The position numbers and the translations under genes are program-made. A stretch of DNA of 64,000 nucleotides from a virus: IMG/VR virus record IMGVR_UViG_3300003937_000343, positions 1 through 64,000 of that record; one strand, written 5' to 3'. This document shows positions 23,594 to 45,413 of this stretch, piece by piece. The notes beneath the pieces were generated by a model. It was not told the origin of the DNA. It worked only from the letters and a program-made list of their open reading frames with translations, and did no database searches. How positions within the stretch are numbered: the first letter of the stretch is position 1; each line of letters begins with the position of its first letter.

Positions 23594-25018
23594 ATGAAGT
23601 TAGGAATTTGTATTCCATATCGAGACATCGGTGATGGTGTTCGTAAACAACACTTGGACAAGTTAGTACCGCATTTAGAAAAGTTCCTTGGCGATAGGAA
23701 TATAGACTTCAGATGTTACATTGGACACCAAGTTGACGAAAAGAAGTTTAATCGTAGTGGTACGAAGAATGTTGCATTCCTTGCTGCTAAAGAAGATGGG
23801 TGTGATTATGTAGCATTTCATGATGTGGATATGTTACCAAAAGATGATTGTGATTACTCACATCCTGGTGATACACCTAAACATATTGCAACTTATTTAT
23901 CTCAATGGGATAATACATTAAGAGATATTCATTATTTTGGTGGAGTAGTGATATTCACTATAGAACAATTTGAAAAAGTAAATGGATATCAAACAGATTA
24001 TTGGGGATGGGGATTTGAAGATGATGATTTATTTTGGAGATGTATTCAGAAAGGATATTTTAAACCAAGTTATATTGAATCTCCAGGTAATACTAAAGTT
24101 TTACAATTTGATGGAGAGGAAACTTATATAAAAATACCAATAACTAATAGTATAATGAATATTCCAAATAAAAGTTGTGAAATAGAAGCTATAGTTTATT
24201 CAGAAATAGAAAGTGAAGATAAAGAATTTTTAATTGGAAATGATATAGGACATTTAAAATATCCAATAGTATCAAGGAAAGGTTGGGATTTTGACATATC
24301 GTATAATAATTCTAAAGCATTTTCTTATTGTTTGTGGGGAGTTAAAAATGAATTAAATTATGGTTGGATGATGAGATATCCAAATCAATGGAGTAAAGTT
24401 AATTTTAAAGTAGATACATATGAGAGAAGTAGAACGATTACTATTAATGATGAGATATATAGTGAGAAATTTGGCCCACAAAAGTCAGTCTTACCATTTG
24501 AAGGTGATTTGAAAAGATATGGTACAACACCATTTTATATTGGAAAGAATCCACCAAATAAGTATGATCCAATGAGAGATAGAAATCGTCCATTTAAAGG
24601 TAAGATGTATTCGATAAAGATGTGGAATGATAAAAAAGAATTAGTATTACATTATGACATGAGTAAGTCTTGGAGAAGAGATAAATTATTAGATTTGAGT
24701 GGAAATGAAAATCATGGTGAGTTGGTAATTGGAAATGGAAAAATAACTAAAGATAATGTTCAGTTAGGAAAAACAATCACACCTGATAGAAGATGGGGAA
24801 CAATGGAATGTATGTATCATGATGATGAGGGAATAGTGGACAATAAGTTTAAAGGAGACCCCGAACAAACTTATAAAAATGAAGTGGTTTATAAAAAAAG
24901 AATGCAAAAAGAAAAAATTAATATAGATAATAATGGATTAAGTGATATGAAATATAAGGTAGTTTCAACGGAAGTTGATATTTATAATAGACATAAGTTA
25001 ATCAATGTGAGGTTTTAA
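23594..25018 (+). CDS. Second GT7-like glycosyltransferase with LamG-like domain (474 aa)
   Basis: This is a paralogue of the preceding gene in the same arrangement: IPYRD, FNRSGTKNVAFLAA, FHDVDMLP, YFGGVVIF, VNGYQTDYWGWGFEDDD in residues 1-155, then a LamG-like jellyroll (VLQFDGEETYIKIP through FKGKMYSIKMWN) to about residue 380. The C-terminal ~60 residues are shared with the first copy (RRWGTMECM / RRKSTFEMV, then KIN..NNGLSDMKYKVVS). Both catalytic acidic motifs are intact. Only two bases separate it from its twin and no clear ribosome site is seen. It overlaps the radical SAM gene by one base at TAATG. Confidence 0.82.
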   Translation: MKLGICIPYRDIGDGVRKQHLDKLVPHLEKFLGDRNIDFRCYIGHQVDEKKFNRSGTKNVAFLAAKEDGCDYVAFHDVDMLPKDDCDYSHPGDTPKHIATYLSQWDNTLRDIHYFGGVVIFTIEQFEKVNGYQTDYWGWGFEDDDLFWRCIQKGYFKPSYIESPGNTKVLQFDGEETYIKIPITNSIMNIPNKSCEIEAIVYSEIESEDKEFLIGNDIGHLKYPIVSRKGWDFDISYNNSKAFSYCLWGVKNELNYGWMMRYPNQWSKVNFKVDTYERSRTITINDEIYSEKFGPQKSVLPFEGDLKRYGTTPFYIGKNPPNKYDPMRDRNRPFKGKMYSIKMWNDKKELVLHYDMSKSWRRDKLLDLSGNENHGELVIGNGKITKDNVQLGKTITPDRRWGTMECMYHDDEGIVDNKFKGDPEQTYKNEVVYKKRMQKEKINIDNNGLSDMKYKVVSTEVDIYNRHKLINVRF

Positions 25019-26454
25019 TGTCTGACGCAGTAAAAGAAAAAAATGAACTTTCAATTGAAAATGAACATTTCGTAAAAACAAAAAAGAAACTTGATAATAT
25101 AGGTAAGGGTATGTGTTTAGCAAAATGGACACAAACAACCATACAATTACAAACAGGGCATACTCATAGTTGCCATCACCCTAAAACACATAAAGTTCCT
25201 TTAAAGGAATTAGATAGAAATCCGAGTGCTCTACACAACACTAAATTTAAAAAACAAAGACGAAAAGAGATGTTGAATGGTGCAAGACCTAAAGAGTGTG
25301 ATTATTGTTGGAATGTCGAGGATACTTCAGATAGATTTTCAGATAGAGTTTTTAAATCACAAGAGAGTTGGTCATTGCCACACTTTGATGAGATAGCAAA
25401 TTCTGATTGGAGAGAAGATTTTAATCCAAGATATGTAGAGGTTGCTTTTTCAAATGCTTGTAATTTTAAGTGTAGTTACTGTGCTCCCGCATACTCAACA
25501 AAGTGGTTTGAAGAAATAGAGACTCACGGTGCATATCCAACAACCGATGAGTTTAATTCTTTTAAGTATAATCAATTAGAAGATAAAATGCCCATCCCAG
25601 TTCGAGATGCAAATCCATATAAAGACGCATTTTGGAAATGGTGGCCCGAGTTATATCAAGATTTACATACATTTAGAATAACAGGTGGAGAACCATTATT
25701 AGCACCAGATACTTTTAAAGTATTGGATTACATTATAGATCATCCTAATCCAAATAAAAATTTACAATTTGCTGTAAATACTAATTTGGGTGGCCCTAAA
25801 CAATTGATTGATAAATTTATTGAGAAGATAAAAAGAATAGAAGATGAAGAACGAGTTCGTGAACTTATTGTCTTTACTTCAGTTGAATCCTGGGGAAACC
25901 AAGCAGAATATATTAGACATGGTATGGATTTTAATTATTTTTGGGATAATGTAAATAGAATTCTGGAAAGTTCTTCAAAAGTAAATGTAACTAACATGGC
26001 AACTTACAATGCACTTTCAGTTCCTAATTATCATAAATTGATTAAAGGTATGTATGATTTAAAAATAAAGTTTGGTTCATCAGAGAGATATTGGAAATCT
26101 GCAGTATTTTTGGATTCAAGTTATTTACGATATCCAACACACCAAACCGTTCAAGTATTACCCGATGAATGGAATCAATATATATTGAAACATGCTCAGT
26201 TAGTTGATTACTATGGTGTTCCTTTATTTGATCATAATTATATCGGTTATTCTGATATAGAGATTCAAAAAATAAAAAGAATTTATGATTGGAAAATTGC
26301 AGACTGGGATGGTAAAGCAAAACAAGTAAAGGAACAACGATATAACTTCGGTAAATTCTTTAAAGAACATGACAAAAGAAGAGGAACTGATTTTTGTAAA
26401 ACTTTTCCAGAGTTAGCTGATTTTTATCGTAAATGTTTGGAGATTAGATTATGA
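25018..26454 (+). CDS. Twitch-domain-type radical SAM protein (478 aa)
   Basis: The iron-sulfur motif is CNFKCSYC (C148, C152, C155), and FRITGGEPLL is the GGE motif that binds SAM. Upstream, CDYCW and a pattern of Cys/His residues (SCHHPKTH) could hold a second cluster or zinc, as in the twitch/SPASM-like radical SAM proteins common in marine T4-like phages. Family members modify peptides or sugars by radical chemistry. GAGG precedes the start (TAATG overlap) and it overlaps the next gene by four bases. The substrate is unknown; linkage to two lectin-fused transferases suggests a glycan or glycopeptide. Confidence 0.82.
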   Translation: MSDAVKEKNELSIENEHFVKTKKKLDNIGKGMCLAKWTQTTIQLQTGHTHSCHHPKTHKVPLKELDRNPSALHNTKFKKQRRKEMLNGARPKECDYCWNVEDTSDRFSDRVFKSQESWSLPHFDEIANSDWREDFNPRYVEVAFSNACNFKCSYCAPAYSTKWFEEIETHGAYPTTDEFNSFKYNQLEDKMPIPVRDANPYKDAFWKWWPELYQDLHTFRITGGEPLLAPDTFKVLDYIIDHPNPNKNLQFAVNTNLGGPKQLIDKFIEKIKRIEDEERVRELIVFTSVESWGNQAEYIRHGMDFNYFWDNVNRILESSSKVNVTNMATYNALSVPNYHKLIKGMYDLKIKFGSSERYWKSAVFLDSSYLRYPTHQTVQVLPDEWNQYILKHAQLVDYYGVPLFDHNYIGYSDIEIQKIKRIYDWKIADWDGKAKQVKEQRYNFGKFFKEHDKRRGTDFCKTFPELADFYRKCLEIRL

Positions 26455-27862: not shown

Positions 27863-28742
27863 AGTAATAGGTTTTGGAGATAGTTTTACTGCAGGTGAGG
27901 GGTGGAATTCAAACGAGGAATTAAGAATTATTAATAAAGATGATTCTATGTGGATAGACACAAGAATATCAACACCATCTGGAAAAGAGTGGTTAGTTTC
28001 TATTAAAGAACAACGAGATAAGTATAAGGAGTGGGAATTACCATTTCATTTAGCTAATGTTAAACATCCAAAAAATTTCCAATTAAATTTACCAAAACTT
28101 TTAGAATTAAGTAGAAGACATTCTTGGGTAAGACATTTAGCAGATAGTTTTGGAGTAGAATGGGAAAACTTTGGTTTGAGTGGTGAAAACAATTATAATA
28201 TACTCAATACTATTTTTAAAAATAAATTACTTCTTAATGAAAATAGTTTAGTTGTTATAATGTGGAGTTCTTCATTAAGAGAGAAACTTCATTTTTTTCC
28301 TAAAGAAGAACAAGATTTTTTATTTTGGAGTAAAGATTTATTAGAAAAACAACCAGAAAGATTTATTGATAGTGGTGATGGATTTTGGAAAGAATATAGA
28401 AAATATTTTTTAGTTAATTTATACGATGAAGATTATTTTGAATATTTACAGTTAAATTATATTGAATTACTTTCAAAGTGGTTCGAGTGGAATAACATAC
28501 CTTATGTTATGTGTAATGCATTTGAATCAATTATACCAAATAAAAGAAAATTTAAAAATTACTACAAACAAAATAGTTCTTTGTTTGAAGACTTGAGAAA
28601 AACAAATAAAACAGATATATGGCAAGATGAAACAACAGAAGTTCCTAAATATCATTCTTATTCACACCATCCTAATGAAAAGGGATATATGATAATATCT
28701 GATTTATTGAAAAACTTTATAGAAGAGAATAATATTTTATGA
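27849..28742 (+). CDS. SGNH hydrolase/acyltransferase-like protein 1 (297 aa)
   Basis: Block I is GFGDSFTAGEG with the nucleophile Ser in GDS; a G-x-N-like FGLSGENNYNIL and a late HSYSHHPNEKGY (the H-x-x-H/GY block V pattern) complete the SGNH set. Such enzymes cleave or move acyl groups, often acetyl groups on glycans. AGAGG precedes the start. It is one of six SGNH-like genes in this island (also 32049, 35625, 36470, 45414, 46195). The next gene starts in its ATGA overlap. The acyl substrate is unknown. Confidence 0.72.
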   Translation: MIINKVIGFGDSFTAGEGWNSNEELRIINKDDSMWIDTRISTPSGKEWLVSIKEQRDKYKEWELPFHLANVKHPKNFQLNLPKLLELSRRHSWVRHLADSFGVEWENFGLSGENNYNILNTIFKNKLLLNENSLVVIMWSSSLREKLHFFPKEEQDFLFWSKDLLEKQPERFIDSGDGFWKEYRKYFLVNLYDEDYFEYLQLNYIELLSKWFEWNNIPYVMCNAFESIIPNKRKFKNYYKQNSSLFEDLRKTNKTDIWQDETTEVPKYHSYSHHPNEKGYMIISDLLKNFIEENNIL

Positions 28743-29821
28743 TAGAAACATATCTTTATAATGAAGAAGATCCAAAATTTACATTGAAAAGATATTTTCA
28801 TCGCGGATATCATATTCATGAGGATAATCGATATGATAATATACATAGGTATTTAAAAAAGTATAAAGACACTAAACAGAAAGTTTGTTTAATTATAAAT
28901 GATTCTTATATTTTACCTTGTATGGAGTTGATTTTTAGAGAAAAATTAACATCTAAATATGAGCATATTATCGTTTATATGCCTGAGGCCTATTGGGATA
29001 CTTTTAATGATTCTAAAACCTTACAGAATAAAATTGATAAAATAGATGATAGCGAAAAAATAACAATTATATTTAATTTTTTTTGTGATAGTCCATTTGA
29101 TTTAAAAAATATAAATTATATAACAACAGTTGGGTGTTTTGGTTCAATAACAAAACTTTATTTAAATAGGTATAAATTTAAGTCTTTAAAAGAGAATTAT
29201 AATAATATAAAATATAATGTTATATCTAAATTTGGTAGACCAAGTGGAGAAAAATTATTCGTATATGAAAAAGTTAAAGATTTTGATAACTTTATTTATA
29301 GTATAAATTCTGCAGATAAAGTTAGTTATTCGGATGTAGGTAATAATGTAGTAGTAAAAAAATTCCCATCAGAAATAAATGCTAAGAGAAATTTTAGATC
29401 AACAACATTACCAATGGAAGATTTTCAATCTGCATCTGAAATTGTAGTTGAGACAAGATTTTCAACATTTGAAGATGGTAAAAGGTTAGTTACCAATACA
29501 GAAAAAACTTTAAAGGGATTTATGTTTAAACGGCCTTTATTTTTATTTGCACAACCAGAATCATATCCATATTTAAAACAATATGGATTTAAATTTCCTA
29601 AATTCTTCGGATATGATAGTGGTAATGCAACACTATATAGGGGAGAATTAAAAACGGAACTTTTTAATATGATTGAAAAAGTTTGTAATATGAATACATC
29701 AGATTTATTAGATATGTTTATTGCGGAAGAAGATGTGTGGGAACATAATTATGATAATTTACATTCTTTTATAGAGTTACATGATAGTAGGATAGAAAAT
29801 GTTTTTAAAAAAGTGGTATAA
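28739..29821 (+). CDS. Glycosyltransferase-like protein of the TEKxxKP family, member 1 (360 aa)
   Basis: The C-terminal third carries the window's recurring signature TEKTLKGFMF..P.FLFAQPESYPYLKQYGFKFP, then a HN-containing helix. The same arrangement occurs at 33366, 41158 and 44073, where it reads TEKxxKPF. The pattern resembles the C-terminal donor-binding half of GT-B inverting transferases such as the GT10 fucosyltransferases (TEKxxxAL), but that is my inference. Here KP is changed to KG. The N-terminal ~200 residues are K/N/Y/I-rich and unrecognised. It is the last gene before the leader RNA at 29850. Confidence 0.5.
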   Translation: MIETYLYNEEDPKFTLKRYFHRGYHIHEDNRYDNIHRYLKKYKDTKQKVCLIINDSYILPCMELIFREKLTSKYEHIIVYMPEAYWDTFNDSKTLQNKIDKIDDSEKITIIFNFFCDSPFDLKNINYITTVGCFGSITKLYLNRYKFKSLKENYNNIKYNVISKFGRPSGEKLFVYEKVKDFDNFIYSINSADKVSYSDVGNNVVVKKFPSEINAKRNFRSTTLPMEDFQSASEIVVETRFSTFEDGKRLVTNTEKTLKGFMFKRPLFLFAQPESYPYLKQYGFKFPKFFGYDSGNATLYRGELKTELFNMIEKVCNMNTSDLLDMFIAEEDVWEHNYDNLHSFIELHDSRIENVFKKVV

Positions 29822-29835
29822 AATGTGTAGTATAG

Positions 29836-29846
29836 TATATTTATAT
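29836..29846 (+). promoter_or_regulatory. Recurrent intergenic motif, candidate promoter for the leader RNA and sugar operon
   Basis: TATATTTATAT lies after the stop at 29821 and just before the structured leader. If it works as a -10-type element, the transcript would begin close to 29850, exactly at the foot of the first stem. Inferred. Confidence 0.5.
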
Positions 29847-29849
29847 ATG

Positions 29850-29983
29850 AAGTCTTGTAGAGATAACACGGGTAACCAATCCTGAAAGTCCAAACCCTCT
29901 ACAATGTAGACTATAAACATGGGTGGCATTTAAGTAGTTTTATTATACTAAATGCCTCTAATTAACTTGGAGGCTTTTTTTTT
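29850..29983 (+). ncRNA. Structured leader RNA, candidate riboswitch or attenuator, upstream of rmlC
   Basis: Three elements are visible. Stem 1: bases 29855-29862 (TTGTAGAG) pair perfectly with 29897-29904 (CTCTACAA), extended by GTC/GAC outside (29852-29854 with 29909-29911), enclosing a C/A/G-rich unpaired core. Stem 2: GCATTTA (29926-29932) pairs with TAAATGC (29949-29955), extended by GTA/TAC. Stem 3 is the terminator at 29954-29974. Stems 2 and 3 share two bases, so they may compete. No open reading frame fills this gap, and the G+C of the core is higher than the flanks. The layout matches transcription-attenuating riboswitches. The ligand and family are not known to me. Confidence 0.6.
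29954..29983 (+). terminator. Intrinsic terminator abutting the rmlC start codon
   Basis: GCCTC (29954-29958) pairs with GAGGC (29970-29974) around an 11-base loop, followed by nine T residues that run straight into the ATG at 29984. The GGAGG ribosome binding site of rmlC (29969-29973) is part of the 3' arm, so forming the hairpin would both stop transcription and hide the ribosome site. Confidence 0.8.
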
Positions 29984-30487
29984 ATGTTCAAAAGTAACAT
30001 AACACAGTCAGATATATTACCAGAGGTAAGGGTTTTTGAACCAAAACCATTTCACGACTATCGTGGTGAGATGTGGTCATTTTGGGAATCAACATACGAC
30101 ACTCCAAAAGAAAAAATATCTAAATTTACTCGTTCTCGTAAGAATGTACTACGAGGATTACATGGCGATGATGTAACATGGAAACATATTAGTTGTGTGT
30201 GGGGTGAAATATATTTAGTTGTTGTGGATTATAGAGAAGATAGCCCAAATTATTTAAAGTGGGATAGTTTTTTAATATCAGATAGAAATCATAAAAGTGT
30301 TTTAGTTCCACCAAGTTTTTTAAATGGACATTTATGTTTATCAGACGAATGTTTATTTCATTATACACAATCTTATCCAAAAAAATATATTGATGCACCA
30401 GAGCAAATTTCAGTCAAATGGAACGACCCAATGTTAAAAATAGATTGGCCAATAGATAATCCAATATTAAGTGGGAGAGACAAATGA
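29984..30487 (+). CDS. rmlC: dTDP-4-dehydrorhamnose 3,5-epimerase-like (RmlC family)
   Basis: The cupin sequence follows RmlC closely: FHDYRGEMWSFWE, SRKNVLRGLHGD with the catalytic-type His at 60, KHISCVWGEIYLVVVDYREDSPNY, SVLVPPSFLNGHLCLS, Y-rich core, and the closing VKWNDPMLKIDWP and LSGRD. The enzyme converts dTDP-4-keto-6-deoxyglucose to its 3,5-epimer, as in rhamnose and related deoxysugars. At 167 aa it is slightly shorter than typical (about 180). Its ribosome site lies inside the terminator stem described above, implying RNA-level control. It overlaps the next gene by four bases. Confidence 0.85.
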   Translation: MFKSNITQSDILPEVRVFEPKPFHDYRGEMWSFWESTYDTPKEKISKFTRSRKNVLRGLHGDDVTWKHISCVWGEIYLVVVDYREDSPNYLKWDSFLISDRNHKSVLVPPSFLNGHLCLSDECLFHYTQSYPKKYIDAPEQISVKWNDPMLKIDWPIDNPILSGRDK

Positions 30488-30903
30488 GTAAAGAAAGAAA
30501 ATATTTACCAACAATAGAAGATTTAATTGATAGATTATCAATTTTTCAATTGAAAGAAGTTAAGATACCAGAACATAAAGAAAAGTATGCAAAAGATATA
30601 CATGATATATTGAATGATATTGATATAATCTTAGATGAGAGTCCTGGTAAAGTTGATGCTAAATTACTTAGAGCAGTAATTGTATTAGCACAAATGAATG
30701 CACACATTTGGTATAATGAATCAGATGTAAGAAATGGTGTAAAGGGTAGTGATAATTTATTATTAACTCATGGGTTAAATGGAATTAGAAATACAGCAAA
30801 GAATTTTATTACTGATATCTTGGGTGGTAGAAAAGACCACAAGATAGATTGTTTAGCATCAGATTTCAAAGATTGGGAAGTAAGTTGGGAAGATGAAGTT
30901 TAA
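30484..30903 (+). CDS. Hypothetical helical protein (139 aa)
   Basis: GGGAGAG precedes the ATGA-overlapping start. The protein is helical and acidic, beginning KYLPTIEDLIDRLSIFQLKEVKIPEHKEKY, with a long middle helix (IDIILDESPG..AKLLRAVIVLAQMNAHIWYNE) and an acidic end. I associate this pattern with conserved small proteins of T4-like cyanophages but cannot name a function. It overlaps the DUF2061-type membrane protein by 11 bases. Confidence 0.65.
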   Translation: MSKERKYLPTIEDLIDRLSIFQLKEVKIPEHKEKYAKDIHDILNDIDIILDESPGKVDAKLLRAVIVLAQMNAHIWYNESDVRNGVKGSDNLLLTHGLNGIRNTAKNFITDILGGRKDHKIDCLASDFKDWEVSWEDEV

Positions 30904-31105
30904 AGAAACAAGAGCTCGTTCTATACGAAAATCAATTGGTTGGAGAGTGATAGCATTCAGTAATTCTTGGGTGGTTTTATCATTTGGATTAACAGAAAAA
31001 GCATTTTGGAATGCTGTAATAATGAATCTTACAGGTATAGTTTTTTTCTATCTATACGAAAGATTTTGGAATAAAATAGATAGTGGGAAGTATAATGAAA
31101 TATAA
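30893..31105 (+). CDS. DUF2061-type small membrane protein (70 aa)
   Basis: The N-terminal ETRARSIRKSIGWRVIAFSNSWVVLSF and C-terminal YERFWNKI pattern match DUF2061, a family of two-helix inner-membrane proteins. Two hydrophobic stretches are visible (residues ~16-32 and ~37-55). In bacteria these genes often sit beside sulfate or nucleotide-sugar metabolism genes, here beside rmlC and a PLP enzyme. The function is unknown. Confidence 0.72.
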   Translation: MKFKETRARSIRKSIGWRVIAFSNSWVVLSFGLTEKAFWNAVIMNLTGIVFFYLYERFWNKIDSGKYNEI

Positions 31106-31116
31106 TAAAATTTGGA

Positions 31117-32052
31117 ATGAGTTCTATGAGGGTTATGGAAAAATATGATATTCAAAAAGGTTTTGATAAAGAGGGTTATATGATGAAAGGTTCGAGACCA
31201 ATACCAGACAAACAATCTTATGAATTCATTAGAGATAATATAAATGGTAATTGTTTATATAAACCAAATTTAATTCAAGATTATTGTAATATATATTCAG
31301 AGTGGATACTATCATCTAAATTAAATAAGTTACATAATCTTGATAAATTTAAATCTAAAAAATTTGTACATGGTACTTCACAATCATTTGATTTTTTTTA
31401 TTTAATGAATCACAAGAAAAGATTTAGAATATTTAAAGGTGATTTTATGTATCATCAAATTATGTTTAGAAGTGGGTATGATTGGAAATATATTGATGAG
31501 GAAGAAATTAAAAAAGATGATGTTGTAATATTTTCAGTTCCATTTTCAGATTTTGGTGATTTACATCCACAAACAGATATAGTATTAGATAGGTGTGATG
31601 AGTTAGGAGTTCCTGTTTTTATAGATTGTGCTTATATGGTTATGTCTCGTGATATAGAATTTGATTTTGATAGGAAATGTATTGTGGGAATTGCTTTTAG
31701 TTTAAGTAAAGGATTTTATGGAGCAGAACATTTACGAGTAGGTATACGATTTACAAGAGAAGATATAGATGATCCCGTAGATGTTTTTAATAGTTATGAA
31801 ATGGTAAGCTATATTTCGTGTGATATTGGAATAAAATTATTTCAGAATTTTGAAACAGATTATATACAAAATAAATACCATGAAAAACAAATACAAGTAT
31901 GTAGTGATTTGTTTATAGAACCAACCAATTGTGTAATATTTGGGATAACAGATGAAACACATTTAAAATTTGGTGATTATGATAGAGGAACAAGACGGCG
32001 AAGAGTTTGTATATCTAATTTAATAGGTGATATGAACCCATTAAAGATATGA
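31117..32052 (+). CDS. PLP-dependent aminotransferase-like (fold type I) protein (311 aa)
   Basis: VPVFIDCAYMVMSRDI contains the Asp-x-Ala-Tyr motif that holds the cofactor ring nitrogen, and VGIAFSLSKGFYGAEHLRVGI holds the candidate Schiff-base lysine (SLSKGF). This is the core of fold-type I aminotransferases; the full family has ~370-400 residues, so it is short at both ends. Sugar aminotransferases of this fold would fit the adjacent RmlC-type gene, but the substrate is not shown. The start is uncertain: later in-frame ATGs at 31126 and 31135 are possible, the last following GAGGG. Confidence 0.68.
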   Translation: MSSMRVMEKYDIQKGFDKEGYMMKGSRPIPDKQSYEFIRDNINGNCLYKPNLIQDYCNIYSEWILSSKLNKLHNLDKFKSKKFVHGTSQSFDFFYLMNHKKRFRIFKGDFMYHQIMFRSGYDWKYIDEEEIKKDDVVIFSVPFSDFGDLHPQTDIVLDRCDELGVPVFIDCAYMVMSRDIEFDFDRKCIVGIAFSLSKGFYGAEHLRVGIRFTREDIDDPVDVFNSYEMVSYISCDIGIKLFQNFETDYIQNKYHEKQIQVCSDLFIEPTNCVIFGITDETHLKFGDYDRGTRRRRVCISNLIGDMNPLKI

Positions 32053-32771
32053 GTAAATTACATATATTTGGTTGTTCACATTGTTACCCATCATGCGGCA
32101 GTAACAATTTTTGGGGAACTTTGTTAGCAGAAAAATTAAATTTGACTTTATGTTATAAAGTTGGAATTGTGTCTCGTGGGGCTAATTCTATTTTATTGGA
32201 TTTACAAAAAAGAATTTTACTTGGAGAAATAAATAGGGGAGATGTGGCTATATGGAATACATCTTATTGTTTAAGAACAGATATTGTTGAACTTAATGGA
32301 GAAATACATGGAGAACAGTATCCAGTAAAGTATATTCCGAAAAGATTTTGGAAACCTACTAACTTACTTTTTAATAAATGGTATTTACAAACTGCTATGG
32401 GATATGAATTATTAAAATTAAAAGGAATAGAAACATATCAATGGGTTTTAGACCCTTTAAAAACTTTACAAAATATGCAACATAGGTTTGGATCCTCAAA
32501 TATAAATGGGTCGTATACAACTGATTCAATATCAAAATTGGAAACGACAATACCAGCGGAACAAAAGTATATTAATAAATGGGAAAATTTAATACAACTT
32601 CCACTTTCTGAACATAAAGAAATTGATTGTTGGTCAAAATGGATTGAAGCACATAGTCTTAATCCAGATGATTTGCATTTAGATAAAAGTGGGCATTTAA
32701 AATTTACAAATATATTTTATGATCAGATAGTGAAATATAGAGAGAAAAATAATGATAAAAAATTTAGATAA
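32049..32771 (+). CDS. SGNH-like hydrolase protein 2 (240 aa)
   Basis: The opening IFGCSHCYPSCGSNNFWG replaces GDS by GCSH but keeps the family's Gly-Cys/Asp-Ser geometry; VSRGANSIL supplies the G-x-N block and LNPDDLHLDKSGHLKF is the C-terminal D-x-H block. Of the six SGNH paralogues this is one of the shortest. Overlaps by four bases with the PLP gene and by 20 with the thiamine-enzyme gene. Confidence 0.66.
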   Translation: MSKLHIFGCSHCYPSCGSNNFWGTLLAEKLNLTLCYKVGIVSRGANSILLDLQKRILLGEINRGDVAIWNTSYCLRTDIVELNGEIHGEQYPVKYIPKRFWKPTNLLFNKWYLQTAMGYELLKLKGIETYQWVLDPLKTLQNMQHRFGSSNINGSYTTDSISKLETTIPAEQKYINKWENLIQLPLSEHKEIDCWSKWIEAHSLNPDDLHLDKSGHLKFTNIFYDQIVKYREKNNDKKFR

Positions 32772-33381
32772 ATATAAAAAGGTACGAGATGTTAACTTAA
32801 CTATTGATAATTTAATTGATTTTGAAAGTGATATAGTTAAACATTGGGAAGGTGGAGATATTCATGCTCCAGTACATCTATCAAATGGAAATGAAGAACA
32901 AGTGATTGAAATATTTTCTCGTATTAGTTATGATGATCATATTTTTTCAACCTGGCGTTCACATTATCATGCATTGTGTCATGGTATATCTCCTGTTTGG
33001 GTGAAGAATGAAGTTTTAGAGGGAAGGTCTATTACAATTTGTAATCTTGACCACAATTTTTATTCATCAGCAATCGTTACGGGTATATTACCAATCGCTC
33101 TCGGAACTGCCATTGGATTAAAGAAACAAAAATCAAAACAAAAAGTGTGGTGTTTTGTTGGTGATATGACTTTTGAAACAGGTATTTTTTATGAGTGTCA
33201 TAAATATGCACGAAATTTTGATTTACCTTTATATTTTGTGGTTGAGGATAACGGAGTTTCCACACAAACACCAACGAAGGCAACTTGGAATAAAAAAAGA
33301 GATATACCAGATGATGTAATTTATTATAATTATGAATCTAAATATCCACACTACGGGACGGGCAAATGGGTAATATTTTAA
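32752..33381 (+). CDS. Thiamine-diphosphate enzyme, E1-alpha-type PP domain only (209 aa)
   Basis: The sequence follows the E1-alpha subunit of 2-oxo acid dehydrogenases: GGDIHAPVHLSNGNEE, DHIFSTWRSHYHALCHG, GITPIALGTAIGLKK-like core and the thiamine-binding motif from GD (D138) to VVEDN (N167). It ends at about residue 209, where normal E1-alpha proteins continue to 320 or more. The partner Pyr-domain subunit is at 40635. Together they form a minimal two-chain enzyme like sulfopyruvate or phosphonopyruvate decarboxylase subunits. The reaction is not determined. Confidence 0.8.
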   Translation: MIKNLDKYKKVRDVNLTIDNLIDFESDIVKHWEGGDIHAPVHLSNGNEEQVIEIFSRISYDDHIFSTWRSHYHALCHGISPVWVKNEVLEGRSITICNLDHNFYSSAIVTGILPIALGTAIGLKKQKSKQKVWCFVGDMTFETGIFYECHKYARNFDLPLYFVVEDNGVSTQTPTKATWNKKRDIPDDVIYYNYESKYPHYGTGKWVIF

Positions 33382-34694
33382 ATTTTATTTTTGAAGATAT
33401 AAAAAATCCGAATGGATATGGTACACGCGAATGGCAAGCTTCCGCTATATACAATTGGATTAAAGATAGATTAATTCATCACAATTTATCTATAAATAAT
33501 AATATTGCATGTACATCAAATTATGAAATAAGAGAAGATTGTAATAATATATTTTTATTGGAATGCACTCATGAATTGAGAGATTTGTGGTGTACAGAAA
33601 GAGTTTCAACTTCTAAAACAATATATAATACTTTTCCTGATAAGTTTAAAAAATTAATACAAAGTGGTAAAGTAAAATTATTAATAGCTTGCGTATCAGA
33701 AGCAACTACAAATTTGGATCACTTTGAGGTTGAAGTTGAAAAATTTTGTAAAGTTCATTCTATTCCAATTGATTCTTTACTTTTTACTGATGGAAATATG
33801 TTAATTGAAAAATGTAAAAAAATAAAAGGATTTTATACACCACATTTTATTTATGATTGTTCTGCTAATATATCACAGTTAATTAAAAAGAGAATTAAGT
33901 TTTATGAATTTAGTCCAACACTTCCAACTATTAGTGAATCTGAAAATAAATTAGATAGGGATTATTACTTTTTAAGTTTGAATAAAAATTGGAGAGATCA
34001 TAGAGCTTTATTAGGATGTTATTTTATAGAAAAAAATGATGATAGAATTTTGTGGAGTTTTTGTTGTAGACAAGGTGAACATATTGATACTCAATTATTA
34101 CCCAGACATAAATTATTATATAATAATAATGTGAGAGAGTTGAATAGACTGATACCAAAATTAATAATACCACGAGAAATAGAGAAATTGGAAGAGTTGA
34201 AGAAAATTCCAGATGTTACTCAAAGGTATCTTATAGATAAAGTATCTGATTTTGCACATTCATATCTTGGTTCACATGATAGGGAATTATATTTAAATTC
34301 TTATTTTCAAATTGTAACAGAAACCGAATTCCCAAATAGTGGTACTATTTTCTTTACAGAAAAAATTATGAAACCATTAATGAATTTACAACCATTTATA
34401 GTTATAACTTCAAGTGGATTTATAAAATCACTTAAATCATTGGGATTCAAAACATATGATGGATTATTTGATGAAAGTTATGATGATATTGAAAATAGGT
34501 GGGAGAGATTTGATTTTATAATAAAAGAGATTGATAAAATTTTATCAAAATCTCCAGAAGAAGTGCGAGATTTATATGAAAAATATTTTGAAATTTGTGT
34601 TTATAATAGAAATCATTTAATACAAAATTTTAATTTAGGTCATTCAAAACATTATGATAAATTATGTGAAGAAATTTTAGGAGAAATACAATGA
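33366..34694 (+). CDS. Glycosyltransferase-like protein of the TEKxxKP family, member 2 (442 aa)
   Basis: Near residue 330 FFTEKIMKPLMNLQPFIVITSSGFIKSLKSLGFKTYDGLFDESYD gives the fullest version of the family signature. A mid-protein LSLNKNWRDHRALLGCYF matches the N-R/K-x-x-R-x-HR element also seen at 41158 and 44073. N-terminal ~190 residues are variable. The pattern suggests an inverting GT-B enzyme; GT10-type is possible. Overlaps E1-alpha by 16 bases and the next SDR by four. Confidence 0.55.
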   Translation: MGNILNFIFEDIKNPNGYGTREWQASAIYNWIKDRLIHHNLSINNNIACTSNYEIREDCNNIFLLECTHELRDLWCTERVSTSKTIYNTFPDKFKKLIQSGKVKLLIACVSEATTNLDHFEVEVEKFCKVHSIPIDSLLFTDGNMLIEKCKKIKGFYTPHFIYDCSANISQLIKKRIKFYEFSPTLPTISESENKLDRDYYFLSLNKNWRDHRALLGCYFIEKNDDRILWSFCCRQGEHIDTQLLPRHKLLYNNNVRELNRLIPKLIIPREIEKLEELKKIPDVTQRYLIDKVSDFAHSYLGSHDRELYLNSYFQIVTETEFPNSGTIFFTEKIMKPLMNLQPFIVITSSGFIKSLKSLGFKTYDGLFDESYDDIENRWERFDFIIKEIDKILSKSPEEVRDLYEKYFEICVYNRNHLIQNFNLGHSKHYDKLCEEILGEIQ

Positions 34695-35635
34695 GTAAAA
34701 AAGTATTAATTACAGGTGCAGTTGGTATGGTAGGACAGTATCTTGTTAAGAAATGTGTTGATAGGGGATATTTTGTTAGAGCAACTGATATTAGAGATAA
34801 TGATGTATTTGCAAATATTTGTAAAAGTCATCACGGACAATTTGAGTTTGTAAAAGCAGACTTGAGAAATTTTAGTGAGAGTAAAGAAGTAGTAAAGGAT
34901 ATGGATGTAGTATTTCATGTTGCAGGAGTTAAAGGTTCACCAAAAAGAGCTATGGAACAACCAAATGATTACTTCACACCAATTTTACAATTTAATACTA
35001 ATATGATGGAAGCTGCAAGGTTAGAAGAAGTTGAGTGGTATGTTTATACAAGTACAAATGGAGTTTATGCACCAGCGGATAGAATGAGAGAAGATGATGT
35101 GTGGAAATCATTTCCATCCGATAATGATAAATTTGCAGGATGGGCAAAGAGGATAGGAGAACTACAGGCAGAATGTTATAAAGTACATTATGGATTAGAA
35201 AATATTTCTATTGTTAGGCCCGCTAATATTTATGGTAGAGGTGATAACTTTGGTAAAGATTCTATGGTAATTCCATCAATCATAAAAAGAATATGTGATG
35301 GGGAGAATCCATTAGTATGTTGGGGTGATGGTACACCAACAAGAGATTTTATTCATGCAAGTGATATTGCCGATGGAATGTTATTATGTTATGATAAAAA
35401 AATAACAGAACCTATTAATTTAGGAAGTGGTAATGGATTTACAATTAAAAAATTAGTAGAAACTATTGCAGAAGTTTATGGAAAAGATGTTCCAATTGAA
35501 TGGGATTCAACTAAACCAAATGGTGATCCTATTAGATTGATGGATACTACAAGAGCTAATGGTTATGGGTTTTATACAAAAGTAAAATTGCGAGATGGAA
35601 TTAAAGAAGTTATGGAGTATTATAATGAAAAATAA
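34691..35635 (+). CDS. Extended SDR NAD-dependent epimerase/dehydratase, non-canonical active site (314 aa)
   Basis: Rossmann motif TGAVGMVGQ, then FVKADLRN, DVVFHVAG, YTSTNGVYAP, RPANIYGRGDN and RDFIHASDIADGM mark an extended SDR nucleotide-sugar epimerase/dehydratase. The usual Tyr-x-x-x-Lys reads AGWAK: the lysine is kept but the tyrosine position is Ala (a Phe precedes it). Related enzymes with a GWAKR motif exist, so it may use a different catalytic base. AGGAG precedes the start and it overlaps the next gene by 11 bases. Confidence 0.8.
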   Translation: MSKKVLITGAVGMVGQYLVKKCVDRGYFVRATDIRDNDVFANICKSHHGQFEFVKADLRNFSESKEVVKDMDVVFHVAGVKGSPKRAMEQPNDYFTPILQFNTNMMEAARLEEVEWYVYTSTNGVYAPADRMREDDVWKSFPSDNDKFAGWAKRIGELQAECYKVHYGLENISIVRPANIYGRGDNFGKDSMVIPSIIKRICDGENPLVCWGDGTPTRDFIHASDIADGMLLCYDKKITEPINLGSGNGFTIKKLVETIAEVYGKDVPIEWDSTKPNGDPIRLMDTTRANGYGFYTKVKLRDGIKEVMEYYNEK

Positions 35636-36467
35636 GGCTTATTTTTATGGAAGTTCATTTACTTGGGGGCATGGATTATGGTTATTTGATTTTGATGGAT
35701 ATCATAAAGAAATTTTTAATAGACCCGATTTTGATTGGAATAACATATTATTGCCTCGTTTGGATATATGGGAATCTGATATAAAACACTTCGATCCCCG
35801 CGGTGGAGAACGGGGACATTCGAGAGAATGGAAATCAAGAAAGTTTGGCAGGGAGAATAGAGTTTCTAAATTACTTTCTAATCATTATGGGTTAGAGGAA
35901 GTAAATAGGGCTAAATCTGGAGGACTCATAGCAGAAACCGTAATAATGATGAATGAAGAAAAAAATTGGGAAAATGTAGGACTTCTATCTATTGAGTTTT
36001 ATGGAGTTGGAAGATATAAATCTGTAACAACATCCGCTAGCGAAACGGTAACACTAACACCTACAGAGATTGAGGATTATATCGAGAATTCAGAGGATGA
36101 TTATTGGCCAGAAATATTAAAAAATTGGGTGATTAATTTTGATTATGATTTTGAACTTAAAACTCAATTACAAAAATTAGAAGAACAATTAGAGAAAATG
36201 GAAAAATTTAATATACCAACTGTTATACATTTTTGGGAGTCTTATGATATAGTAGATATAAAAAATATAATATTAGATTATCCATTAGTAGATAAATATA
36301 CTATGAATAAAGATGAGAGCATTAAAGAATGGGCAAAAAATAGATATCAAATTCATGATGAACATCCATACTATAATAAAAGTATAGGTAAAAGAGATGA
36401 ACACTTGGGAGTAAAAGGACATAAAGAATTATTTAAAAGAATTAAAAATTATTTAGGAGAAATTTGA
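35625..36467 (+). CDS. SGNH-like hydrolase protein 3 (280 aa)
   Basis: The start at 35625 is chosen because GGAG precedes it; the upstream 35595 ATG lies inside the SDR gene. Block I is FYGSSFTWGHG, a middle RAKSGGLIAET matches the oxyanion block, and DEHLGVKGHKELF is the C-terminal D-x-H-x-x-x-x-GH block. Charged W/E-rich middle. Same family as the next gene. The ATGA-overlap with the SDR gene shows translational coupling. Confidence 0.66.
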   Translation: MKNKAYFYGSSFTWGHGLWLFDFDGYHKEIFNRPDFDWNNILLPRLDIWESDIKHFDPRGGERGHSREWKSRKFGRENRVSKLLSNHYGLEEVNRAKSGGLIAETVIMMNEEKNWENVGLLSIEFYGVGRYKSVTTSASETVTLTPTEIEDYIENSEDDYWPEILKNWVINFDYDFELKTQLQKLEEQLEKMEKFNIPTVIHFWESYDIVDIKNIILDYPLVDKYTMNKDESIKEWAKNRYQIHDEHPYYNKSIGKRDEHLGVKGHKELFKRIKNYLGEI

Positions 36468-36469
36468 AG

Positions 36470-37420
36470 ATGAAAAAAATATTATTGGGAGAAGGATGTA
36501 GTTGGACTGCTGGTTCTATTATTGATCCAAAATTAGAAGGAATTACTTCTGATGTTATGGATAGAAGGAATACAGATTACAGACTACCAAAAATGTGGCC
36601 TGATAAATTGGGGAAGTTATTAAATGTGAGAGTTAAAAATGATGGTCATGCTGGATCATCAAATGATTCTATAGTTAGGCGTACAATAGAAAATGTTTTA
36701 ATTCTTTTAGAAGAATATAAACCTGAAAATATATTTGTTATAATAGGATGGACATCACCCGAAAGAAAAGATTTTTATTTTAAAGATTTGTTGAATACAA
36801 GAGATAGGGGCCATTGGAAGTCATTATACCCTGCCCAATTAATAGAAGATATTGAAAATATGGAGCATGTGGATTTGAAAAAATTTTTCACTCTATATAC
36901 ACAGTATTTTTGGAATGAGGAAGAATATTTAAGTCGGTATATTAATCAAAATATATTTTTACATTATTTTTTAGAACAACATAATGTAAGTCATATATTT
37001 TATAATGGATTTTATGATAGGTTGGAGAATATCGAGTCTGAATTTAGTTTTGATGCTTCAAAAGGAGATTTAACTAAAAGACACATTCTTAAAGCTTTAA
37101 CTACAGGTATTCATGGTGGGAATTCTCAGACTCCATATATGAAAAAAGCTGCAGAAGAATTTTTTAGAATTGAAAATAAAGTTTTTAAGGATATTACATT
37201 TAGGAAATTTATAATGGATATTGATATTAGAGAACTTGAAAAGAAGAAGGGGTTGAAACCTTTCGAGATGAGAAGAGAAGATCATAATGTTAGTAATTAT
37301 GCAGAACAAAGTGATGATGATAAATTTTTATATGATGGCCATCCAAGTTCACTTGGGCATCAACTTTGGGCAGAAGAATTATATAAGGATATTCCAGATG
37401 AATGGAAACAGGAGAAATAA
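36470..37420 (+). CDS. SGNH-like hydrolase protein 4 (316 aa)
   Basis: AGGAG precedes the ATG at 36470; a TTG six bases earlier is also in frame but less likely. The blocks are GEGCSWTAGS, DGHAGSSNDSIV, and YDGHPSSLGHQLWAEEL. In the middle, ENIFVIIGWTSPERKDFYF is the typical beta-strand/loop of SGNH enzymes. It is tandem to the previous paralogue, so a recent duplication is plausible, although the two are well diverged. Confidence 0.68.
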   Translation: MKKILLGEGCSWTAGSIIDPKLEGITSDVMDRRNTDYRLPKMWPDKLGKLLNVRVKNDGHAGSSNDSIVRRTIENVLILLEEYKPENIFVIIGWTSPERKDFYFKDLLNTRDRGHWKSLYPAQLIEDIENMEHVDLKKFFTLYTQYFWNEEEYLSRYINQNIFLHYFLEQHNVSHIFYNGFYDRLENIESEFSFDASKGDLTKRHILKALTTGIHGGNSQTPYMKKAAEEFFRIENKVFKDITFRKFIMDIDIRELEKKKGLKPFEMRREDHNVSNYAEQSDDDKFLYDGHPSSLGHQLWAEELYKDIPDEWKQEK

Positions 37421-37422
37421 TA

Positions 37423-37923
37423 ATGTATGAATTTTTAGGTAATTGGGATTTTGATTTTGAGATAAAGTATGATAATTTTAAGGAATGGAGAAATCATAAT
37501 GCCTCAAAAAATAGAGTGATTGATAAATACTCTCAAAAACAAATTGACTTAAAAATGCCAACAGAAATTATAAAGGCATTTAGGGAAGATTTTCCAGATT
37601 ATATTGAAGAATATTTAGGAAAGTTTAATATGGATATAGTAAATTCTAATTTTCATATACAACGACCAGGAAATTTTGTTCCACCGCATGTTGACAATTA
37701 TTTGTATTTAAAAGAGAATAAGGATACTAAAGGAGAACCGAATCGTATAATGGTGTTTATGAGTGATTGGAGTTTTGGACAAGTTTTTATGGTAGGAGAT
37801 TCAATTATTACAAATTGGAAAAAAGGTGATGCATATATGATGGATGATTCAATATTACATATGACATCAAATGGTTCATATGAGGATAAATTAACTTTAA
37901 TTATGACTGGATATAAGAAGTAA
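37423..37923 (+). CDS. 2OG-Fe(II) oxygenase-like protein A (166 aa)
   Basis: AGGAG before the start at 37423 decides it over an upstream ATG at 37402. The facial triad is visible as PPHVDNY (H89, D91) and DDSILHMTSNG (H146), in a jellyroll context (NRIMVFMSDWSFGQVFMVGD, WKKGDAYMMDD) that recalls aspartyl/asparaginyl hydroxylases. Such enzymes hydroxylate side chains or small molecules using 2-oxoglutarate. Substrate unknown. One base separates it from a second oxygenase. Confidence 0.7.
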   Translation: MYEFLGNWDFDFEIKYDNFKEWRNHNASKNRVIDKYSQKQIDLKMPTEIIKAFREDFPDYIEEYLGKFNMDIVNSNFHIQRPGNFVPPHVDNYLYLKENKDTKGEPNRIMVFMSDWSFGQVFMVGDSIITNWKKGDAYMMDDSILHMTSNGSYEDKLTLIMTGYKK

Positions 37924-37924
37924 G

Positions 37925-38581
37925 ATGGATCATAATAGAATAAATTATTATAAAAACGGAGTTGTTGTGATTGATGATTTTTTACCTACTGATGTTTATA
38001 ATGAGATGGTAGATATTTTTTATAAAGGGGAATATGTAGAAATTGCACAATCATTTGATGATAGATATGAGTTGTGGAAAACTGATGATAAGAATTTCCC
38101 ATCGACAGATGAAGTATATACAAATCATTTTTGGGGAAGTCCAGAAATTTCTCATAATCCAAATGTTTTGGATATGTATGGAGATTATATAAAACCTGTA
38201 ATACAATCTATAACAATGGGAGAATCTGGAAAAGGTAGACACCAATCAACAAAGTATCATAATAATTCTAAAGATTTTTTAAGAACACATATAGATGATT
38301 ATATGGGTTATATTGGATATGTGATGCATTTTCAAAAAGAAACATGGAAATATGATTGGGGTGGATTATTACAGATGGTTAAAGATGGTGAAATTAAAAC
38401 TATTTTACCACAACCAAATAGGTTGGTAGTTCATAATCATTCACTTGGAATGCCACATTGGGTTACTCCAGTTAATTCTTGGGCAAAAGAAGATAGATAT
38501 ACTCTTACTGGATTTTGTATTAAGAAAGATGATGAGATACCTAAAACTTGGGAGAGTAGAAATGATTATTCTATATATTAA
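37925..38581 (+). CDS. 2OG-Fe(II) oxygenase-like protein B, prolyl-4-hydroxylase type (218 aa)
   Basis: VVVIDDFLPTDVYNEM is the typical opening of P4Hc-type oxygenases. The triad is RTHIDDY (H122, D124) and MPHWVTPV (H178), with KEDRYTLTGF holding the Arg that binds 2-oxoglutarate. GLLQMVKDGEIKTILPQPNRLVVHN is the core jellyroll. It belongs to a family frequent in marine T4-like phages; substrates there are unknown but a peptide or sugar is likely. Forms a tandem pair with the previous gene. Confidence 0.78.
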   Translation: MDHNRINYYKNGVVVIDDFLPTDVYNEMVDIFYKGEYVEIAQSFDDRYELWKTDDKNFPSTDEVYTNHFWGSPEISHNPNVLDMYGDYIKPVIQSITMGESGKGRHQSTKYHNNSKDFLRTHIDDYMGYIGYVMHFQKETWKYDWGGLLQMVKDGEIKTILPQPNRLVVHNHSLGMPHWVTPVNSWAKEDRYTLTGFCIKKDDEIPKTWESRNDYSIY

Positions 38582-38592
38582 GGAGATGAAAA

Positions 38593-39609
38593 ATGTTTAA
38601 AGATAAAAAAGTAGTAGTAACAGGGGGAAGTGGTTTTATTGGAACACACTTTATAGAGGAGTTATTAGATAGAGGTGCGTTAGTAAAAACTCATACTCAC
38701 GAATCACCTTTAAAAATAAAAGATAGTAGAATTGAAGTATTAGAAAATATTAATTTAGAAAAGTTAGAGGATGCACTTATATTAATTGAGGGGGCTGATT
38801 ATGTAATACACGCTGCTGGATACATTGGACACCCATCGGACATTGCTACAGATTTTCAAATAGCATTGAATCAGATAACTGTAATTACAAATGTTTTAGA
38901 GGCTTCTTATAAATCAAATGTTAAGGGATTTTTAGATTTAAATAGTTCTACAGGTTATCCTGATAGACGATATCCAATTACAGAAGATGAATATTGGGAT
39001 GGAGAACCATATATTTCTTATTATGGATATGGTTGGATGAGAAGATATAGAGAAAAAGTTATGGAACACGCTTCACATTTATCTGATATGAAAATTGGTA
39101 TTGCAAGAGGAACTGCAATATTTGGGCCACATGATAACTTTAATTTAAAAACTTGTCATGTTGTACCAGCATTGATAAAAAGAGTATTAAGTGGAGAGAA
39201 TCCTTTTGTGGTTTGGGGAAGTCCTGATGTAGTTAGAGATTTTCTTTATGTAAAAGATGTAATTAAAGGTTGTTTATTGGTATTAGAAAAGGGGGAATCT
39301 ATGAAACCATATAATGTTGGTTATGGTTCTACTGTAACTATTGGGGAAATTGTGGATGTTATTTTAAAGACAACTGGTAAAACACCAAATGTAGAATGGG
39401 ATAATTCTAAACCTACTACTATTCCATTTAGAATGGTAAGTACTGAAAGAATTACGAAAGAACTTGGATTTAAACCAGATTATACTTTCGAAGAGGGTAT
39501 GAAAGAAACAGTTGAATGGTATAAAGAGAATGATGATGATTATGTAGAAGATTACAGTTATAGTTGTTATCCATCATGGGAAAGATCACTCAAGGAAAAC
39601 AAAAAATGA
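38593..39609 (+). CDS. Extended SDR NAD-dependent epimerase/dehydratase, Lys replaced (338 aa)
   Basis: AAGGAG precedes the start. TGGSGFIGTHF is the nucleotide-binding motif, then DYVIHAAGYIG, LNSSTGYP, RGTAIFGPHDNF and RDFLYVKDVIKG of nucleotide-sugar SDRs. The active-site motif reads YGWMR, so the usual catalytic Lys is Arg. This is the opposite change to the paralogue at 34691. Overlaps the next SDR gene by four bases. Confidence 0.8.
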   Translation: MFKDKKVVVTGGSGFIGTHFIEELLDRGALVKTHTHESPLKIKDSRIEVLENINLEKLEDALILIEGADYVIHAAGYIGHPSDIATDFQIALNQITVITNVLEASYKSNVKGFLDLNSSTGYPDRRYPITEDEYWDGEPYISYYGYGWMRRYREKVMEHASHLSDMKIGIARGTAIFGPHDNFNLKTCHVVPALIKRVLSGENPFVVWGSPDVVRDFLYVKDVIKGCLLVLEKGESMKPYNVGYGSTVTIGEIVDVILKTTGKTPNVEWDNSKPTTIPFRMVSTERITKELGFKPDYTFEEGMKETVEWYKENDDDYVEDYSYSCYPSWERSLKENKK

Positions 39610-40568
39610 AAATACTAATAACAGGTGGAGCAGGATATTTAGGTTCAGTAATAACAAGAAACTTATTAAAAAATCATGAAGTAATAGTATATGATAATTT
39701 GATGTATAATCAAACATCATTAGTTGATTTATGTCATCACAAAAATTTTATATACCATTATGGAGATGTTCGTGAGTGGAGTAAATTAAAATATATAATG
39801 GAAGAAGTTGATGTTATTATTCCATTAGCAGCATTGGTTGGATTTCCAAGTTGTGAAAAGGATAAAGAATTAGCAACAAGTATCAATACAACTCAAATAA
39901 AAAATATAGTTGATATGTTAACACCAGATCAAAGGATTTTATATCCAAATACGAATAGTGGTTATGGAAGTAGAGTAGATGGTATGGTAGATGAAACAAA
40001 TTCATTAACACCAATTACACATTATGGAGTAACTAAATGTGAAGCAGAAGATTATATTATGAAAGAAAGTAATGGAATAGTTTTCAGATTAGCAACTGTA
40101 TTTGGTGTGTCGAGTCGTATGAGATTAGATTTATTGGTAAATGAATTTGTATATAAATTATTAACCGATAGATATATTACATTATTTGAACACGAATTTG
40201 TTAGAAACTTTATTCATATACAAGATGTAAGTTCTGCGTTTGAGTTTATGATTGATAATTATGATAAATATCAAGGGCAGATATTCAATGTAGGATTATC
40301 AGATACTAATATTAATAAGAAAGAATTAGTTGAAAGAATTCAAAAACAAATATCAAATACTTCTGTTACTTATTCTGATTATTATGAAGATCCAGATAAA
40401 AGAAATTATATTGTTAGTAATAAAAAAATAGAATTAACAGGTTGGAAACCACAATATAGTATTGATGATGGAATTACAGAATTGATACAAGCATACAAAA
40501 TGATAGTTCCACAAGAGAGTTCAAGATATAGAAATGCATTTCCATTAACTTATGGAATCGGAACATAA
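39606..40568 (+). CDS. Extended SDR NAD-dependent epimerase, canonical active site (320 aa)
   Basis: The start at 39606 (MKILITGGAGYLGS, with AAGGA upstream) is preferred over 39564, which lies within the preceding gene. Motifs: TGGAGYLGS, VDVIIPLAALVG, NTNSGYG, HYGVTKCEAE with the YxxxK active site intact, and VRNFIHIQDVSSAF. UDP-glucose 4-epimerase-like or related. The sole SDR of the three with all expected catalytic residues, so it may do the redox step for the others' substrate. Confidence 0.84.
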   Translation: MKILITGGAGYLGSVITRNLLKNHEVIVYDNLMYNQTSLVDLCHHKNFIYHYGDVREWSKLKYIMEEVDVIIPLAALVGFPSCEKDKELATSINTTQIKNIVDMLTPDQRILYPNTNSGYGSRVDGMVDETNSLTPITHYGVTKCEAEDYIMKESNGIVFRLATVFGVSSRMRLDLLVNEFVYKLLTDRYITLFEHEFVRNFIHIQDVSSAFEFMIDNYDKYQGQIFNVGLSDTNINKKELVERIQKQISNTSVTYSDYYEDPDKRNYIVSNKKIELTGWKPQYSIDDGITELIQAYKMIVPQESSRYRNAFPLTYGIGT

Positions 40569-40634
40569 TGAAACCAGATTTAAAATCTACTTTACCATCA
40601 GAATATGTAAGATTATAATATAAGGAGATTATAG

Positions 40635-41165
40635 ATGGAAAATACAATTTATAAAGATGAATTAACAAAGTCAATGAATTATTTGGCATCACAAGATAAT
40701 ACAATATTTGTAGGACAACAAATTGTATATAAGGGAAATCCAATGTCAACAACGATTGAAGAAGTTCCAAAAGAAAGAATGATAGAAACACCTGTACTCG
40801 AAGAAGTACAGTTAGGAATGTCAACGGGACTTTCAATAACAGGAATGTGTGTTGTTAGTTTTTATCCAAGATGGGATTTTTTACTTTGTGCCAGTAATCA
40901 ATTAGCTACACACTTGGATAATTTTAAAGAAATGACTAATCAAGATGCTCATGTAATTATTAGAGTAGGTAAAGGCAGTGATGATCCACTGGATCCAGGT
41001 GTACAGCATAAAGGAGATTATAGTGAGGCTTTTAGAAAAATTTTAAAAAATATAGAAATTATTAATTTTGATTCACATGAAAATATTTATGAAACTTATG
41101 TTAATGCTTATAAAAATGGAAAACCAATTATTTTGGTAGAATATCCTGAAAAATATTATGAATAA
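40635..41165 (+). CDS. Thiamine-diphosphate enzyme, E1-beta-type Pyr domain only (176 aa)
   Basis: AAGGAG precedes the start. The chain matches only the transketolase/E1-beta pyrimidine-binding domain: FVGQQIVYKGNPMSTTIEEVP, RMIETPVLEEVQLGMSTGLS, SFYPRWDFLLCASNQLATHLD, with the conserved Glu (ETPVLEE) that activates the cofactor. The C-terminal half of a normal E1-beta (about 325 aa) is absent. It pairs logically with the PP-domain protein at 32752. Overlaps the next gene by eight bases. Confidence 0.8.
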   Translation: MENTIYKDELTKSMNYLASQDNTIFVGQQIVYKGNPMSTTIEEVPKERMIETPVLEEVQLGMSTGLSITGMCVVSFYPRWDFLLCASNQLATHLDNFKEMTNQDAHVIIRVGKGSDDPLDPGVQHKGDYSEAFRKILKNIEIINFDSHENIYETYVNAYKNGKPIILVEYPEKYYE

Positions 41166-45266: not shown

Positions 45267-45299
45267 TTTTGTTTGTGAAGAAATATAAAGGAGATATAA

Positions 45300-45410
45300 A
45301 TGAACATATTTAAATTGTTAAAAGAGAAATTAAGACAATTTCGATTAAATAGAAAATATAAAGAGAAGATTAAGGAACTTAAAAAACGAGATCCTTTTAT
45401 CTATAAATAA
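45300..45410 (+). CDS. Small basic protein (36 aa)
   Basis: AAAGGAG sits at ideal spacing before the ATG at 45300. The 36 residues are almost entirely basic helix (LLKEKLRQFRLNRKYKEKI) ending KKRDPFIYK. I have the impression of similar very short peptides in T4-like cyanophages but cannot name it. It is followed three bases later by the next gene. Its position between a GT and an SGNH gene gives no function. Confidence 0.6.
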   Translation: MNIFKLLKEKLRQFRLNRKYKEKIKELKKRDPFIYK

Positions 45411-45413
45411 AAA

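Follow-up and report, generated by a model that had tools for sequence, protein, structure and literature searches.

The leader of the sugar operon in this viral genome contains a compact RNA of about 76 nt (29851-29926), in which the stacked helices P1, P2 and P3 are combined with a pseudoknot. This RNA is probably a riboswitch-like cis-regulatory element of marine phages and is predicted, from modelling of its folds, to act as an OFF switch for sugar operons. It recurs before the nucleotide-sugar operons of marine phages and is absent from Rfam 15, and its helices, its pseudoknot, the overlap with alternative hairpins and the association with sugar genes are supported by comparative evidence and folding. 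An initial annotation had proposed that the leader is a riboswitch or an attenuator; the covariation, the folding of the expression platform and the lack of a conserved leader ORF indicate that this was the right category. That annotation includes neither P1 and P3 nor the pseudoknot, and it does not mention that antiterminator and pseudoknot are mutually exclusive.

The window, that is, the whole 64,000-nt stretch that was analysed, covers the greater part of a viral record (70.7 kb) from a tailed phage, with terminase and portal present. The leader gap of 162 nt lies between an unannotated gene (28739-29821) and the first gene of the operon (29984-30487, + strand), which encodes an RmlC-like protein of the dTDP-4-dehydrorhamnose 3,5-epimerase family (Pfam PF00908, E 2e-33) that scores under the NCBIfam rmlC equivalog cutoff. 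Gene calls and domain searches showed that the tightly packed + strand genes that follow (30484-48013) encode SDR epimerase/dehydratases, TPP-enzyme halves, an aminotransferase-like protein, 2OG oxygenases, and DUF6071, methyltransferase-like, radical SAM/SPASM and SET domain proteins. Because these genes are closely spaced, control of the whole 18 kb operon by the leader RNA is plausible.

Several features of the gene content were also recorded. The thiamine-enzyme halves are encoded separately in the same operon, as an E1-alpha-like and a transketolase-pyrimidine-domain-like protein (32752-33381 and 40635-41165), and the first gene 3′ of the motif in member L025 likewise encodes a transketolase half. 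DUF6071 (PF19547) proteins are recurrent in these sugar operons; they are found in the window at 36464-37420 and 45414-46208 and as the first controlled gene in L011, L013 and L016, with the matches of L011 and of window 45414-46208 falling under the Pfam cutoff. Genes for radical SAM proteins, one of which has a SPASM domain, lie inside and just before the operon (43258-44076 and 25018-26454), and a P-loop protein with a match to the zeta toxin/kinase family is encoded 3′ of it (48069-48836).

The positions that the initial annotation gave for the stems, the terminator with its T tract and the Shine-Dalgarno sequence were confirmed to within 1-2 bases. Stem 1 is formed by TTGTAGAG (29855-29862) and CTCTACAA (29897-29904), and stem 2 by GCATTTAAGTA (29926-29936) and a strand with its last base at 29955. 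Nine T (29975-29983) separate the terminator GCCTCTAATTAACTTGGAGGC (29954-29974), which is stem 3, from the ATG at 29984; the 3′ arm of the terminator contains the ribosome site GGAGG (29969-29973), and 29954-29956 are common to stems 2 and 3. In the minimum-energy fold of the platform with the pseudoknot strand free, stem 2 is part of an antiterminator hairpin, GGCATTTA.GTA / TAC.TAAATGCC (29925-29956, + strand), in which 29925-29936 pair with 29946-29956. The intrinsic terminator GCCTC..GAGGC with its nine T (29954-29983, + strand) was identified by sequence, fold and pattern scan. Terminator-like sites are not enriched in number (6 in 19 kb compared to 4.0 +/- 2.3 in shuffles), and 29954-29983 is the only scanned site with an unbroken long T run. 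The folding energy of this single leader was unremarkable relative to shuffled sequence (z = -0.86); since the lone leader folds no better than shuffles, the significance of the RNA rests on its homologues.

With the window counted, 22 viral records carry the motif, and they comprise 18 distinct sequences with one confident match per record. The first set was obtained by an RmlC protein search and with DNA patterns taken from the motif core, and a covariance model built from seven sequences was then used to recover further members; several of these were reached by way of RmlC protein similarity rather than the motif. The motif is carried by 17 of the 20 contigs having an RmlC relative, and two of the three contigs that do not carry it may lack the start of the operon because they begin approximately 4.6 and 8.6 kb before rmlC. 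The first gene varies between RmlC, GDP-mannose dehydratase-like, SDR epimerase, transketolase half and DUF6071, and nucleotide-sugar operons are the gene setting that the members share. When the window was compared to L018, identity was 99% across the motif but fell to the shuffled baseline in the 200 upstream bases (59% versus 58%), and the genes differed.

All members are phages that are kin through their sugar genes, and no bacterial member was found in a pattern scan of genome contigs or in 369 genomes of the class of L096. The one true match of the pattern scan, L096 (NZZP01000015.1), is binned in a gammaproteobacterial MAG; it was taken as viral because it shares 97.7% identity with the viral contig L081 across 5.8 kb, and its binning may be either a hint at the host or an artefact. 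The only two additional matches in the 369 genomes (L109 and L110) scored 25-27 bits, which is chance level. Pattern matches L030-L036, L078, L080 and L097-L107 were rejected since the surrounding motif was absent or the model gave no match, and the bacterial pattern matches L087-L095 were attributed to chance; L087 gave a weak match of 25.6 bits, but it lies antisense within a coding gene and has no P2 or P3. A blastn search of the motif against annotated phages returned chance matches only, and RmlC relatives in isolate phages are less than 60% identical (about 33-35% among the matches listed).

The consensus of the conserved RNA can be written as AGTC-N2-[P2]-NTAAC-N-[P3]-AAAGWCCWAACY-[P2']-N2-8-GACTATAAA-N-RGWGG-CAY, from which individual positions occasionally deviate. 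In P1, AGTC (29851-29854) pairs with GACT (29909-29912) in 98.6% of cells, and the near-invariant ATAA (29913-29916) comes next; because P1 is almost invariant, covariation gives no support for or against it. In P2, which corresponds to stem 1, GTAGAG (29857-29862) pairs with CTCTAC (29897-29902) in 94% of cells, and all six pairs have changed on both sides in the model-fitted alignment A5. In P3, CGGG (29869-29872) pairs with CCTG (29881-29884), all four pairs covary in A5, and the helix is switched to CTC-TTCG-GAG in L002 and L006. Two unpaired segments of the internal loop, AAC (29865-29867) and AAAG (29885-29888), are invariant in 18 of 18 members, and the AAAG residues are candidates for a binding pocket on the basis of this sequence conservation; A29893 and 29914-29916 are further invariant unpaired bases.

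Compensatory changes, which the initial annotation had proposed to look for in stems 1 and 2, were present in stem 1 (P2), P3 and the pseudoknot. Pairing holds in 95.9% of the cells of A5, and both partners have changed in 12 of the 19 pairs. The covariation in A5 was 0.41 compared to 0.14 in shuffled alignments (0 of 500 shuffles reached it) and at most 0.09 when the partners were slid, values to be read with the caution that the P1-P3 model guided the fitting of the alignments A3 and A5 and that related sequences can beat shuffles without structure. In a hand alignment of 17 sequences 98% of cells were paired, and P2 and P3 emerged from RNAalifold without prior structure when ten sequences aligned with plain MAFFT were used as input.

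The pseudoknot, which was left out of the covariance models, is formed by CCA-AA-CC (29890-29896, with 29890-29892 and 29895-29896 paired) and GGTGG (29922-29926), the last two G of which are the first two of the antiterminator; the consensus is CCW..CY with RGWGG. Pair 29892-29924 is U-A in 9 members, A-U in 5, U.U in 3 and C-G in 1. This third pair type occurs in L130, a later member that was detected by RmlC protein similarity alone and that carries CCC/GGG at the W-W position. Pair 29896-29922 is C-G in 17 members and U-A in one (L009). An alternative register, ACCC/GGGW, fitted fewer members than CCW/WGG as judged by eye.

A promoter-like element, TAYTTATATA (29838-29847, + strand), has a conserved spacing to P1. 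TAYTTAT is located 11-15 nt upstream of P1 in 16 of 16 aligned members, and no copy of TAYTTATA was found in 6080 nt of sequence farther upstream. This placement and the absence farther upstream suggest, at the level of sequence, that transcripts begin at or near P1. Within the window as a whole, motifs of this type are not enriched (TAYTTATATA, 4 found compared to 2.8 expected), nor is the T4-type late promoter TATAAATA.

The expression platforms were folded from GGWGG through the start codon with the GGWGG strand either free or blocked. With the strand free, an antiterminator starting at GGC was the minimum-energy form in most members and often reached into the pseudoknot strand. With the strand blocked, a hairpin formed with the purine-rich Shine-Dalgarno stretch directly before the T tract, and only in this condition was the terminator of the window complete. 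Blocking of GGWGG increased in silico the pairing of the 3′ arm of the terminator or Shine-Dalgarno hairpin in 14 of 14 platforms, which are partly non-independent sequences, with a mean rise of +0.33 compared to at most +0.13 for shuffled platform sets. The two states were only about 0-4 kcal/mol apart in these folds. Taken together, the sequence and the controlled folding predict that the aptamer and the expression platform overlap and exclude each other.

Three layouts appear to follow one logic: a terminator in most members, a Shine-Dalgarno hairpin lacking a T tract in L025, and a Shine-Dalgarno sequence inside the pseudoknot strand in L017, where the strand GGAGG is the Shine-Dalgarno sequence itself, three bases before the ATG. 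The sequence varies, yet a terminator, or a Shine-Dalgarno hairpin equivalent to it, is retained, which agrees with the conservation expected by the initial annotation. The platform of L130 shifted like the others, although a further, alternative hairpin appears downstream in its strand-free fold. In L008 the leader is longer and includes a second terminator farther downstream, and local hairpins dominate the folds; between motif and rmlC (L008:2825-3000) this leader carries the tandem terminator-like hairpins CCCTCCG..CGGGGGG-TTTT and TCTCTCATAA..TTATGGGAGA-T9.

From these observations we infer a promoter, a ligand, a direction of switching and a span of control. Transcription would start close to P1, and the P1-P2-P3 aptamer, whose internal loop contains the invariant AAC and AAAG, would bind the putative ligand. 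In the bound state the loop side CCW..CY would capture the downstream GGWGG as a pseudoknot, which would remove the base of the antiterminator (GGCAY..RUGCC) and free GCC; the freed GCC would allow GCCTCC..GGAGGC to form, so that transcription would end at the T tract and the Shine-Dalgarno sequence would be hidden. Without ligand, the antiterminator would win and the operon would be expressed. Formation of the pseudoknot is assigned to the OFF state because its 3′ strand overlaps the antiterminator or the Shine-Dalgarno sequence in each readable layout. Such a switch would plausibly serve in the feedback control of phage nucleotide-sugar synthesis. The genes (RmlC-like, GDP-mannose dehydratase-like, SDR epimerases and the paired thiamine-enzyme halves) suggest a nucleotide sugar or a relative of one as the ligand, a protein or another metabolite being possible. 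The more specific proposal, that the RNA is a natural riboswitch which senses a nucleotide sugar or an intermediate of RmlC or SDR enzymes and provides feedback on a phage glycan-making operon, is put forward tentatively.

The same RNA switch may instead be worked by an RNA-binding protein of phage or host, comparable to autoregulatory leader RNAs. The conserved unpaired AAC and AAAG could be a protein site, and sequence cannot tell such a site from a metabolite pocket. However, the first genes differ among members (RmlC, GMD-like, epimerase, DUF6071 and transketolase half), which makes autoregulation by the first gene product unlikely, and the motif tracks a pathway, as is typical of metabolite control; a protein-operated switch is accordingly considered rather unlikely. 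It is still more doubtful that the output is fixed without ligand sensing by a constitutive pseudoknot/terminator module or by an element of co-transcriptional timing or temperature. Although a phage could make use of passive attenuation, and the folds place the antiterminator and terminator states at almost the same energy, passive attenuation does not need unpaired nucleotides conserved in 18 of 18 members far from the platform, nor does it need the swapping between terminator, Shine-Dalgarno hairpin and direct Shine-Dalgarno overlap.

An RNA of the EAR/epsC or put type, which would act by processive antitermination and modify RNA polymerase for the 18 kb operon, would suit a long polysaccharide-type operon with a structured RNA near its start. 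This reading is very improbable, as there is no Rfam match to epsC, JUMPstart or others, terminator-like sites are few on the + strand within the operon, and L017 and L025 have no terminator and involve the Shine-Dalgarno sequence instead. The least credible explanation, for which we see hardly any chance, is a leader-peptide attenuator. The window does contain ATG AAG TCT..TGA (MKSCRDNTGNQS) overlapping P1-P3, but this ATG is absent in many members (e.g. L002, L006, L007, L011, L018, L019, L040 and L130), and neither a conserved short ORF nor a peptide common to the members was found.

A ligand-responsive OFF switch of this kind would suggest that phages use RNA to meter the synthesis of their own sugars. 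As a riboswitch candidate it is specific and directly testable, with few plausible ligands, and simple translational reporters would suit the search for the ligand in L025 and L017, which use the Shine-Dalgarno sequence and not a terminator.

The initial annotation could not match the leader to the wcaG or manA motifs, and a covariance search likewise gave no match to either. The whole window had no match at the gathering threshold among 4227 Rfam families, including epsC, JUMPstart and glnA; the weak matches of its leader fall mainly on the terminator hairpin, and several members searched at E<=10 were not placed in any known family, wcaG and manA included. As a positive control, cyanophage S-CREM1 scored 92.7 bits for wcaG and 96.6 bits for manA at positions taken from PMC9964418, and the new model did not match either of these elements. 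The literature searched contained no description of the motif, which could still be listed in a large catalogue of candidate phage RNAs.

In pseudoknotted riboswitches such as SAM-II and preQ1-II, a strand overlapping the Shine-Dalgarno sequence or an antiterminator is captured by a loop that lies upstream of it. The loop of the new RNA is predicted to capture a downstream 3′ strand in a similar manner, and the new RNA differs from both in its core (AAC / AAAGWCCWAACC / ATAA) and in matching no Rfam riboswitch family. The epsC/EAR element of Bacillus is likewise a structured, pseudoknot-bearing RNA of exopolysaccharide operons (PMC2864571); in contrast, the pseudoknot strand of the new RNA overlaps the antiterminator or Shine-Dalgarno sequence, and Rfam gives no match. 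The nearest parallels are the cyanophage riboswitch candidates wcaG and manA (PMC2864571). Like the new RNA, wcaG (RF01761) is a leader RNA of marine phages, usually located before exopolysaccharide genes and regarded as a riboswitch candidate (PMC2864571), but its sequence and fold are different. Similarly, manA (RF01745) is a marine and cyanophage leader RNA of sugar and other genes with a possible pseudoknot (PMC2864571), but it spans 192 model positions and has another sequence. The new RNA is therefore of the same kind as wcaG and manA and lies outside those families.
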